64,000 nucleotides of DNA from Candidatus Babeliales bacterium (lineage in GTDB: Bacteria > Babelota > Babeliae > Babelales > Vermiphilaceae). Location: assembly GCA_020049835.1 (NCBI GenBank), contig JAGVLK010000008.1, positions 1 to 64,000 of the forward strand. Reading direction: 5' to 3'. Position numbers and translations under genes: made by a program. This document shows positions 47,786-51,376 of this stretch, piece by piece (within the stretch, counting starts at the first letter, position 1; the number at the start of each line of letters is the position of its first letter). A model generated the notes under the pieces. It was not told the DNA's origin. It did no database searches and saw nothing but the letters and a program-made list of their open reading frames with translations.

Positions 47786-50700
47786 ATGAATCCCAAGCAT
47801 AAAAAAACGCAATATTTTTCAGTAAAAGGCCTTTTTGAAGGCCTATCTAGCTTTAACGAGTTAGAAAATAGAATTTCTAGTTTACCAGAGGTTGAGCGTG
47901 GGGATGCCTTTGAGGTATTTGCCGAAGCCTACTTTAAGACTCAAGATCTTCATCAAATACAAGAAATATGGCCAGAGAAAGTATTACCACAAAGTTTGCG
48001 TGATGTTCTTGGGGTACAGACAGATGCGGGGGTTGATGGGGTTTTTAAAACTCATTCGGGCCTTTATACCGCGTATCAGGTCAAATTCAGAACTAATAGA
48101 GTTGCATTAACCTGGGATAATGACGGACTGGGTAAATTTTTTGGACAAACCGATCGAGTTGATAAACGTGTACTTTTTACTAATTCTGTTGATTTGTCAC
48201 ATGTTACAAACACTCGCGCTGACTTTTATTCTGTAAAAGGAACTGAGTTAGATAATCTTAACCGATCAGATTTTCAAGCAATCGATAATTGGCTTAAAAC
48301 CGGCGTAATTATAAAAAATAAAAAAACATTGTACTCATATCAGCGGGAAGCAGTTAATGATATTTTACGTGAGTTAAATACCAACGATCGCACCACGGCA
48401 GTTATGGCATGTGGTAGTGGTAAAACATTGGTTGCTCTTTCTGTCGCTGAAAAAATAGAAGCCAAAACAATTCTTGTTTTGCTTCCGTCACTCGCATTAA
48501 TTAAGCAGACGTTGCGTGATTGGGCAGATGATAATAATTGGGATAGCTTTAATTTCTTGTGTGTTTGTTCTGATATTACTGTAATCCAAGGTAGTGATGA
48601 AATTGTTTTACAGCAGTATGATTTAGATTTTCCTGTTACTACGCAACAAGAGGTTGTCGAAGCATTTCTATTAAATAAAGACACTCCACGTAAAATTATT
48701 TTTTCTACATATCAATCGTGTCAGATAGTTGCGCAGGCAATGCCGCAGACTTTTTCTTTTGATTTAGCAATATTTGATGAAGCTCATAAAACAGCATCCC
48801 GTCAAGGGACCAATTATGCATTTGCATTACGAGACAGCAATTTATCTATAAAAAAAAGATTGTTTTTAACCGCGACGCCGCGTCATTACAATCTAAATAA
48901 AAAAGATAAAGAGGGTGAGCAACAACTTGTATTTTCTATGGATGATCAAGCTACGTATGGTCGTATAGCGCATCAACTATCATTCAGAGCCGCTGTTAAA
49001 CAAAATATAATATGTGATTATAAGGTGATCATTTCAGTAGTAACCTCTGAAATGATTAATCGTGAATTGTTAAAGCGCGGTGAAGTTATTGTTGAAGGTG
49101 ATGCGGTTAAGGCATTGCGTATTGCTAATATTTTGGCGATAGAGCGTGCTGTAAAGGAATATGGAATGAAACGAATTTTTTCATTCCATAGTTCAGTTCA
49201 AGCAGCAAAATCATTTACTGCAAAAACCAATGAAGGAATTGGTATACATCTTAAAGATTTTGTTACTCTGCATGTTAATGGAGAAATGTCTACCAATAAG
49301 CGCGATGCGCTTTTAAAAGAGTTCAAGGAATCTGAAAAAGCCATTATTTCTAATGCGCGTTGCCTGACGGAAGGTGTGAATGTTCCAGCTGTTGATATGG
49401 TTGCATTTGTTTCTCCTAAAAAAAGTAAGGTTGATATTGTACAAGCTGCTGGTAGGGCAATGCGTAAGCATGGCGATAAGAAATGCGGTTACATTTTAAT
49501 TCCTCTTTTCATGCAAATGGCAGATGATGAAAGTTTTGAACAGGCACTTTCAAAAACAAAATTTGAGACGGTTTGGGATGTTCTGCAAGCAATGCAAGAA
49601 CAGGATGAAAGTTTAGTAGAAATCATTGCTCAATTGCGTGAGGCTCGAGGTAAAGCACTTGGTATAAATGATAATCGTTTACGAGAGCGCGTTGAAATTT
49701 TGGGGCCGGAATTACTTTTAGATGATTTGCGTGATGCAATAGCAACGCAAATTATTGATCAGTTAGGATCTGGTTGGGATGAAAGATTAGGAGAGCTCAT
49801 AAAATTTAAAGGATTGTTCGGGCATTGCAATGTTTCGCAATTGTCCCAGCAATATCGCGATCTAGGTTCTTGGGTGACTACGCAGCGGCGTGTTTATAAC
49901 GCAAAGAAGATGTCTAGTGAACGTATTAAAAAGCTTGAAGCTATTGGGTTTGAGTGGGATCCTCTGTCAAATAAATGGGCATCGATGTTTACTGCTTTGT
50001 CTGAATATCGCAAGAAATATGGTACTTGTAATGTGCCTCAAAATTATTCAGAAGATCTTGATCTTGGCGTATGGGTAAGTATGCAACGATGTGCTTATAA
50101 AGCCGGAAAAATATTACAAGATCGAATTGAAAAGCTTGAATCTATCGGTTTTGAATGGGACCAATTTTCAGAGCAATGGGAAAAGATGTTTATTCAACTA
50201 AGTGAATATCGCGAAAAAAATGGTGATTGTTTTGTGCCGAGAGATTTTTCTGAAAATATTATACTCGCGACTTGGGTAAGTGATCAGCGAAAAATGTATA
50301 ACAAAGGAAAATTGTCTCAACACCGAATTACTAAGCTTGAATCTATTGATTTTCATTGGGATCCATTGGATCAAGTGTGGGATGCTAAATTTGCTGAATT
50401 ATGCAAATACCAACAGATGTATGGAAATGATATACCTGCTAAATTTTCAAAACATCATAAACTTGCAATATGGATGCAGCATCAACGAAATTACTATAAG
50501 AAAGGCCGATTATCTATCGAGAGAATAACAAAACTTGAATCGATTCGTTTTGATTGGGATCCACTAAACAATACATGGCACACTAGATTTGCTGAACTAC
50601 GAAAATACAAAGAAGTTCATGGTAATTGTGATGTTCCTTCAAAATATTTTGAGAGTCCTTTGCTGCGATCTTGGGTTTGTAATCAACGAACCTATTATAA

Positions 50701-51376
50701 GCAAAAAAAACTTTCAAATGAACGAATAATCCTTCTTGAATCGATTGGTTTTGTTTGGGAATCATTAGATCAGCAATGGGAAAACATGTTTAATGAACTT
50801 AATAAACACTACACAATTTTTGGTCACCCAAATGTACCCAAGCGCTATAATGAAAGTCATGGATTAGGCACGTGGTGTCAGGGACAACGAAATGCCTATA
50901 AAAACAAAAAACTATCGCCGGATCGCATTAATAAACTTACGTCGATTGGATTTTGCTGGGATCCGTTAGCTGAACAATGGGAAAGAATGTTTGTTGAATT
51001 GTTTAAATATTATGGTGAATATGGTAATTGTGATGTGCCACATAGATATTCAATGAATCCAACCCTCGGATTGTGGGTAGGTGTTCAGCGACGAGCGTAT
51101 AAAAAAAATAAGTTATTGAAAGAATATATTAATCGTTTGGAATCAATTGAATTTGATTGGGCTCCACTTACTTCCTCATGGGATGAGATGTTTTATAAAT
51201 TATGCAAATATCGTGAAATTCATGGTGATTGCAATGTATCATCGAAGTGTCCTGAAAATCCAATACTTGGGAGATGGGTTCACAATCAACGGATGCTTTA
51301 TAAGCAAAAAAAATTGACACAGGATCGTATTGATAGGCTCAATGGAATTGGTTTTCTTTGGAAAATAAAATTTTGA
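47786..51376 (+). CDS. Mrr-like nuclease fused to SF2 helicase and eight helicase-associated repeats
   Basis: 1196 aa. Residues about 30-170 form a PD-(D/E)xK nuclease of Mrr type: F-A-E-A-Y-F (Glu47), G-V-D-G-V-F (Asp84) and Y-Q-V-K-F (Gln98/Lys100). Residues about 180-620 are an SF2 translocase: A-C-G-S-G-K-T at 208-214, F-D-E-A-H-K at 330-335, L-T-A-T-P at 361-365, and Q-A-A-G-R-A-M-R. From about 660 to the end are eight tandem helicase-associated (PF03457-like) units. Each has W-x-x-M-F, G-x-C-N-V-P, L-G-x-W-V-x-x-Q-R and R-I-x-x-L-E-S-I-G-F-x-W. It probably binds and cuts foreign or modified DNA; a methyltransferase partner is absent. It may be a stand-alone defence enzyme. Confidence 0.88.
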   Translation: MNPKHKKTQYFSVKGLFEGLSSFNELENRISSLPEVERGDAFEVFAEAYFKTQDLHQIQEIWPEKVLPQSLRDVLGVQTDAGVDGVFKTHSGLYTAYQVKFRTNRVALTWDNDGLGKFFGQTDRVDKRVLFTNSVDLSHVTNTRADFYSVKGTELDNLNRSDFQAIDNWLKTGVIIKNKKTLYSYQREAVNDILRELNTNDRTTAVMACGSGKTLVALSVAEKIEAKTILVLLPSLALIKQTLRDWADDNNWDSFNFLCVCSDITVIQGSDEIVLQQYDLDFPVTTQQEVVEAFLLNKDTPRKIIFSTYQSCQIVAQAMPQTFSFDLAIFDEAHKTASRQGTNYAFALRDSNLSIKKRLFLTATPRHYNLNKKDKEGEQQLVFSMDDQATYGRIAHQLSFRAAVKQNIICDYKVIISVVTSEMINRELLKRGEVIVEGDAVKALRIANILAIERAVKEYGMKRIFSFHSSVQAAKSFTAKTNEGIGIHLKDFVTLHVNGEMSTNKRDALLKEFKESEKAIISNARCLTEGVNVPAVDMVAFVSPKKSKVDIVQAAGRAMRKHGDKKCGYILIPLFMQMADDESFEQALSKTKFETVWDVLQAMQEQDESLVEIIAQLREARGKALGINDNRLRERVEILGPELLLDDLRDAIATQIIDQLGSGWDERLGELIKFKGLFGHCNVSQLSQQYRDLGSWVTTQRRVYNAKKMSSERIKKLEAIGFEWDPLSNKWASMFTALSEYRKKYGTCNVPQNYSEDLDLGVWVSMQRCAYKAGKILQDRIEKLESIGFEWDQFSEQWEKMFIQLSEYREKNGDCFVPRDFSENIILATWVSDQRKMYNKGKLSQHRITKLESIDFHWDPLDQVWDAKFAELCKYQQMYGNDIPAKFSKHHKLAIWMQHQRNYYKKGRLSIERITKLESIRFDWDPLNNTWHTRFAELRKYKEVHGNCDVPSKYFESPLLRSWVCNQRTYYKQKKLSNERIILLESIGFVWESLDQQWENMFNELNKHYTIFGHPNVPKRYNESHGLGTWCQGQRNAYKNKKLSPDRINKLTSIGFCWDPLAEQWERMFVELFKYYGEYGNCDVPHRYSMNPTLGLWVGVQRRAYKKNKLLKEYINRLESIEFDWAPLTSSWDEMFYKLCKYREIHGDCNVSSKCPENPILGRWVHNQRMLYKQKKLTQDRIDRLNGIGFLWKIKF

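Follow-up and report, generated by a model that had tools for sequence, protein, structure and literature searches.

The nuclease-helicase gene and its domains

In the window (the whole stretch of DNA analysed, 64,000 nucleotides), an open reading frame with an ATG start and no internal stop encodes a 1196-amino-acid protein (Table 1), and the gene is single-copy in the 1.44-Mb, 24-contig genome. Pfam matches in the protein are ResIII (residues 180-366), Helicase_C (461-561) and eight HA units (PF03457, whole-protein E value 1.2e-154). The motor contains a Walker A motif (208-214, with lysine K213), a DEAH box (331-334), the sequence TATP (362-365) and R557 and R560 of motif VI. With eight tandem HA units behind an SF2 motor, the protein has the layout of an HA-domain SF2 helicase (PF03457). 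The AlphaFold2 model of the protein (mean pLDDT 78) has LlaBIII as its top fold match in the PDB (4xqk, E value 3.2e-33), followed by LlaGI; RadD, XPB and SauUSI rank lower. The HA array has no fold neighbours in the PDB, and the only homologous solved structure found for PF03457 is 2KTA, which is without DNA.

Table 1 Features of the nuclease-helicase gene in the window
Feature	Coordinates	Strand	Basis
Complete gene, Mrr-like nuclease, SF2 translocase and eight HA units	47786..51376	+	ORF list, Pfam, AlphaFold2 model
Mrr-type PD-(D/E)xK nuclease, residues 23-175	47852..48310	+	LlaBIII homology, invariant E43, D80, D84, Q98, K100
SF2 helicase-like translocase, residues 176-620	48311..49645	+	Pfam, LlaBIII alignment, motifs
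Short linker, residues 621-662, where Type ISP has a coupler of ~125 aa	49646..49771	+	PF22240 unmatched
HA unit 1 (anchor unit, like unit 1 of other proteins)	49772..49972	+	Unit delineation and between-array comparison
HA unit 2	49973..50173	+	Unit delineation
HA unit 3	50174..50374	+	Unit delineation
HA unit 4	50375..50572	+	Unit delineation
HA unit 5	50573..50773	+	Unit delineation
HA unit 6	50774..50974	+	Unit delineation
HA unit 7	50975..51175	+	Unit delineation
HA unit 8	51176..51373	+	Unit delineation

Pfam and LlaBIII homology bear out the domain order given in the preliminary description, namely an Mrr-like nuclease, an SF2 motor and eight HA units in one 1196-residue chain. The repeats had also been described as varying in both length and wording. 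Their wording does vary, with pairwise identities of 34-52% among the eight units, but their length is nearly constant (67, 67, 67, 66, 67, 67, 67 and 66 amino acids for units 1-8). At these identities, near-identical repeats of the TALE kind were rejected for the window protein; one relative alone, L085, comes near that state. A downstream ORF of 94 amino acids, previously put forward as a possible accessory gene, was also rejected as a linked partner: its weak homologues occur in three genomes that lack the nuclease gene, and none is linked.

A conserved Mrr-type nuclease domain

Residues 23-626 of the window protein align with residues 15-664 of LlaBIII (phmmer against solved structures, E value 6e-68), which covers both the nuclease and the motor. 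Pfam left the nuclease domain of the window protein uncalled; Mrr_cat_2 matches the same domain in several relatives, and residues 23-114 alone match LlaBIII with an E value of 0.0012. The nuclease motif is D84...Q98-x-K100, the 'QxK' form of the Mrr family. Residues G39, E43, D80, D84, Q98 and K100 are invariant in 14 aligned homologues. In a 94-row alignment that takes in proteins of the HA, zinc-finger and ISP types, the same six are unchanged in every row with a nuclease, except that G39 is missing in two near-identical rows. D84 and K100 had been singled out beforehand as nuclease residues, and poor conservation among homologues had been named as a ground for refuting the proposed enzyme; both prove to belong to the conserved set. 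A tblastn search of plasmids with the nuclease domain alone gave no match at 1e-3, the query being too divergent for such a search.

Comparison with Type ISP restriction enzymes

Like LlaGI and LlaBIII, the window protein has an N-terminal Mrr-family nuclease with the D...QxK motif and, directly after it, an SF2 helicase-like ATPase; both parts lie in the same order in one chain, and the likeness runs end to end over residues 23-626. On the strength of the LlaBIII alignment and the AlphaFold2 fold matches to LlaBIII and LlaGI, we conclude that, in its front half, the protein corresponds to a Type ISP restriction enzyme. PADLOC restriction models also match the protein.

The similarity ends behind the motor. 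In Type ISP enzymes the motor is followed by a coupler, an N6-methyltransferase and a Type_ISP_C target-recognition domain, and a Rhodococcus Type ISP relative carries all three. In contrast, Pfam finds neither the coupler PF22240 (present in the Type ISP relative L037) nor the target-recognition domain PF18135 in the window protein, in which eight HA units stand instead, and family profile searches of the chain find no N6-adenine methyltransferase domain. Because three defining features are absent, we do not class the protein as a Type ISP enzyme.

Family-library scans reveal no DNA methyltransferase at the locus either. Across the genome, which is ~96% complete, profile searches for four major methyltransferase families (N6_Mtase, N6_N4_Mtase, MethyltransfD12 and DNA_methylase; PF02384, PF01555, PF02086 and PF00145) returned nothing over the cut-off, while control genomes gave matches. 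The absence of a methyltransferase partner, first noted for the locus, thus extends for these four families to the genome, and self-protection by a methyl mark from them is therefore unlikely here.

Exchange of the putative reader half among relatives

On a tree of motor domains, the Type ISP enzymes form one clade, and its members carry the coupler, methyltransferase and target-recognition domain behind the nuclease-motor. Elsewhere on the tree, L007/L030 and L008/L031, from two Dependentiae genomes, are sisters with an SH-aLRT support of 100. L030 and L031 are 64% identical over 636 front residues, and their C-terminal parts are of different kinds: L031 has HA units, and L030 has five treble-clef zinc fingers of DUF4379 (PF14311). 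L030 (4373-7396, in a genome of the same family as that of the window) thus shares with the window protein the nuclease-motor front and a C-terminal repeat array, but not the type of repeat. At least three kinds of putative reader are found behind a single type of nuclease-motor: a methyltransferase-TRD, an HA array and a treble-clef zinc-finger array. As judged by these comparisons of sequence, the reader half is exchangeable.

The window protein and L002 are sisters whose nuclease and motor are 67% and 70% identical, yet their arrays are only 33% identical. Over the stretch of motor that was compared, L026 stands further from the window protein (59% identity, versus 73% for L002) and yet has the more similar array (42%). 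The array step also differs, being 67-71 amino acids with 'GW' in L002 and 66-67 amino acids with 'GF' in the window protein. From these contrasts, we conclude that the array content changes independently of the motor.

Further nuclease-SF2 proteins were seen on viral contigs (L045, L051 and L053). Their C-terminal parts have no Pfam match and possibly represent additional reader types; single-protein scans of viral contigs gave nothing new. Some copies among the relatives may be decayed or misassembled, because L025 and L026 are frameshifted and L004 is truncated. The frameshifts lie between the nuclease and helicase parts (L026:8794-9017 and L025:9000-9223), where there is no obvious homopolymer; decay, assembly error and recoding are all possible. 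L004, from a Planctomycetia genome, stops after HA unit 1 (10150-10328), and the same short stretch recurs ~1.4 kb downstream (11600-11750). That the window gene is itself the remnant of a restriction enzyme, now decayed or inactive and surviving by chance, as these defective relatives might suggest, is highly improbable given its intact ORF, its invariant catalytic and motor motifs and its regular, high-scoring array.

Evolution and variable face of the HA array

The relatives carry 3 to 10 HA units each. In each of the ten arrays compared, units were on average closer to units of their own protein than to units elsewhere; the exception is unit 1, which tends to pair with the first units of other arrays. 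This indicates that units have been duplicated and lost behind a first unit that stayed anchored.

In a three-unit model (pLDDT 94), each HA unit consists of three helices, with helix 2 at approximately positions 29-43. Within-protein variability is highest at nine positions, 23, 24, 30, 33, 36, 37, 40, 41 and 44, picked by variability in eight proteins. They form a face on one side of helix 2, opposite the conserved side of L31, W34, V35, Q38 and R39, together with a loop. Of 19 held-out proteins, close relatives among them, 17 had a face that was more variable than the other non-core positions (Wilcoxon p = 2.7e-5). In units 1-8 of the window protein, the face residues are QQRASKHS at position 23, LNDKKRRK at 24, DDIKLGTI at 30, SVTISTLR at 33, TSSQCQGH at 36, TMDHNGVN at 37, RCKNTNRM at 40, VAMYYAAL at 41 and AAKKQNKQ at 44.

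A viral contig encodes an SF2-HA protein (L085:101-2761) with five units that are 75-95% identical and differ mainly at the helix-2 face. Among these recently duplicated units, variation is seen in seven of nine face columns and in 11 of the 52 remaining ones (p = 0.0018). L085 is a good natural set for decoding the HA repeat.

Between plasmid orthologues, the face behaves in two ways, each represented by one independent pair of helicase-HA proteins without a nuclease. In the P. aeruginosa pair (WP_124173582.1 and WP_273651102.1), 21% of front, 43% of other HA and 20% of face positions are changed (p = 0.002, face against other HA positions); in the Rhodococcus pair (WP_046380344.1 and WP_143542582.1), the corresponding values are 6%, 27% and 51% (p = 6e-5). 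A face that is conserved in one pair and fastest-changing in another is as expected of specificity residues, which the comparison suggests they are; plain lack of constraint fails to predict the P. aeruginosa pattern. Positive selection at the face of the Rhodococcus pair is not supported, dN/dS being 0.29, not above 1, with dS raised, and recombination of units may explain part of the change. Omega is ~1.1-1.2 in L085 and in a duplicated pair of units in L035, on very few sites. The idea that the array could be a modular DNA reader is strengthened by its face variability, its evolution and its exchange among relatives, all of which point to the HA units as the likely DNA-reading part.

Genomic context and distribution

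Of 101 Dependentiae genomes, four have the nuclease gene, one of them in the zinc-finger form. Just downstream of it in the window lies an rpe-(glyoxalase)-groES-groEL block, which is conserved across a set of 13 relatives. Its groEL side could be recovered in 12 of these, and in none are the window genes upstream of rpe found near it; the nuclease gene is therefore at the edge of a variable region. Other genes in this region include an adjacent pair at 44202-44926, a nucleotidyltransferase (Polbeta/NTP_transf_2) and an HEPN-like NTase_sub_bind gene, which is a probable MNT-HEPN toxin-antitoxin. A DUF488 gene at 47060-47590 on the reverse strand, divergent from the nuclease gene, matches the PADLOC candidate-defence model PDC-M45B (E value 2e-33). 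An alpha/beta hydrolase (43176-44105, reverse strand; L002:4836-5669) is 72% identical between two Dependentiae loci and lies 2-4 kb from the nuclease gene in both, possibly marking a shared insertion neighbourhood.

Mobile-element genes recur around the relatives. L002 has a serine recombinase gene on one side and a tyrosine integrase-like gene on the other (by our reading of the ORFs), L031 adjoins a mutator transposase with a resolvase nearby, L026 adjoins a PIN gene, a phage capsid gene is near L038 and an integrase near L053. L033 is carried by a linear Rhodococcus plasmid, at a distance of 12 kb from its end, and a NACHT gene is two genes from it. A homologue from an isolate, WP_064689746.1, is encoded on the Rhodococcus qingshengii plasmid RQCS_2. 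A conserved operon partner was rejected, since the neighbours of at least 12 relatives have hardly any family in common apart from recombinases and one hydrolase; the same neighbours include no conserved defence gene. The distribution and surroundings fit a mobile single-gene system. Of the defence role proposed earlier, plausibility stands, given the anti-phage-class front, the occurrence in few genomes and the mobile-element neighbours, but linkage to known defence genes is weak. Plasmids and phages commonly carry HA-helicases without a nuclease, so an HA domain in itself does not mark a gene as defensive.

Proposed function

We consider it probable that the gene encodes an ATP-driven, single-chain restriction-like nuclease in which the front half of a Type ISP enzyme, nuclease and translocase, is joined to an HA array, in place of the coupler, methyltransferase and target-recognition domain, and is targeted by that array against foreign DNA. 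In LlaBIII and LlaGI, the motor starts once the target is bound, and the nuclease is activated when converging, translocating enzymes collide (PMC4666363, PMC7049714). The window protein probably works in a similar way. We infer that its HA units bind DNA and choose the target or loading site, and that the enzyme cleaves DNA in a defence role. The array would most likely wrap or lie along duplex DNA and thereby select where the enzyme loads; the SF2 motor would then translocate, and stalling or collision would activate the Mrr nuclease, as in LlaBIII and LlaGI. Host DNA would be spared, without methylation, through the absence there of the address, modification or structure needed by the array. 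The likely role would be to keep out phages, plasmids or competing mobile elements.

The preliminary description held that such an enzyme must recognise modified or foreign DNA by itself. Modified DNA is only one possibility, and recognition of a sequence address or of DNA ends is just as possible. A predicted nuclease in a genome with no match to the four methyltransferase families also has the makings of a Type IV restriction enzyme, for which a self-methyl mark from those families is not needed. The HA array would then sense modified bases or DNA structures such as ends, forks or single-stranded gaps, and the nuclease would cut foreign DNA bearing them, by analogy with SauUSI. This enzyme, a fold neighbour of the AlphaFold2 model, is likewise a single chain of nuclease, SF2 motor and C-terminal reader without a methyltransferase, but its nuclease is of the PLD type, a different family, and its reader differs. 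Roles at DNA ends or telomeres would suit the HA-helicases near linear-plasmid ends. However, hypervariability between units that is confined to a single face, where orthologues either keep or replace the residues, suits a reader of sequence better than a protein recognising one fixed modification, and we regard a Type IV-like enzyme as rather unlikely.

The protein might instead act on its own mobile element, in transfer, telomere processing or replication, with the nuclease included, like the TtrA terminal helicase of Streptomyces linear replicons. HA-domain helicases of plasmids and phages, probable TtrA-like proteins among them, share the SF2 motor followed by 3-10 HA units and the same hypervariable face. 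We found 784 matching plasmid records, mainly of helicase and HA, many near plasmid ends and pointing inward, as ttrA does near replicon ends (PMC8743542); roles in transfer or telomere biology have been proposed for this group (PMC8743542). Several relatives also adjoin recombinases and phage genes. The plasmid-maintenance-like branch, however, lacks the Mrr nuclease, which matches a restriction-modification class. Moreover, the window copy is on a chromosome-like contig beside the conserved rpe-groES-groEL block, and no plasmid or transfer genes were seen among the nearby genes scanned. Such a maintenance function is accordingly improbable.

Returning to the restriction-like nuclease, we tentatively propose that the HA units constitute a modular base-reading array, a possibility that we rate as less likely than not. 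Helix-2 positions 33, 36, 37, 40, 41 and 44 and loop positions 23, 24 and 30 would touch DNA, and the array would spell a long, protein-coded address. Combined with the ISP-type nuclease-motor, it would restrict DNA bearing that address without self-methylation; arrays without the nuclease would guide the helicases of plasmids and phages to the DNA of their own element. The parts are known, and the domain combination and the reading-face pattern appear to be new: we found no description in the open-access literature of this architecture, of HA-domain function, or of ISP enzymes without a methyltransferase. PF03457 repeats are widespread in the helicases of plasmids, phages and chromosomes, and our analysis yields a hypothesis with named residues for them. 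If true, it would mean that restriction can rely on a protein-coded address without self-methylation, and the HA unit may offer a repeat scaffold for reading DNA, with a code that the many natural arrays could reveal.
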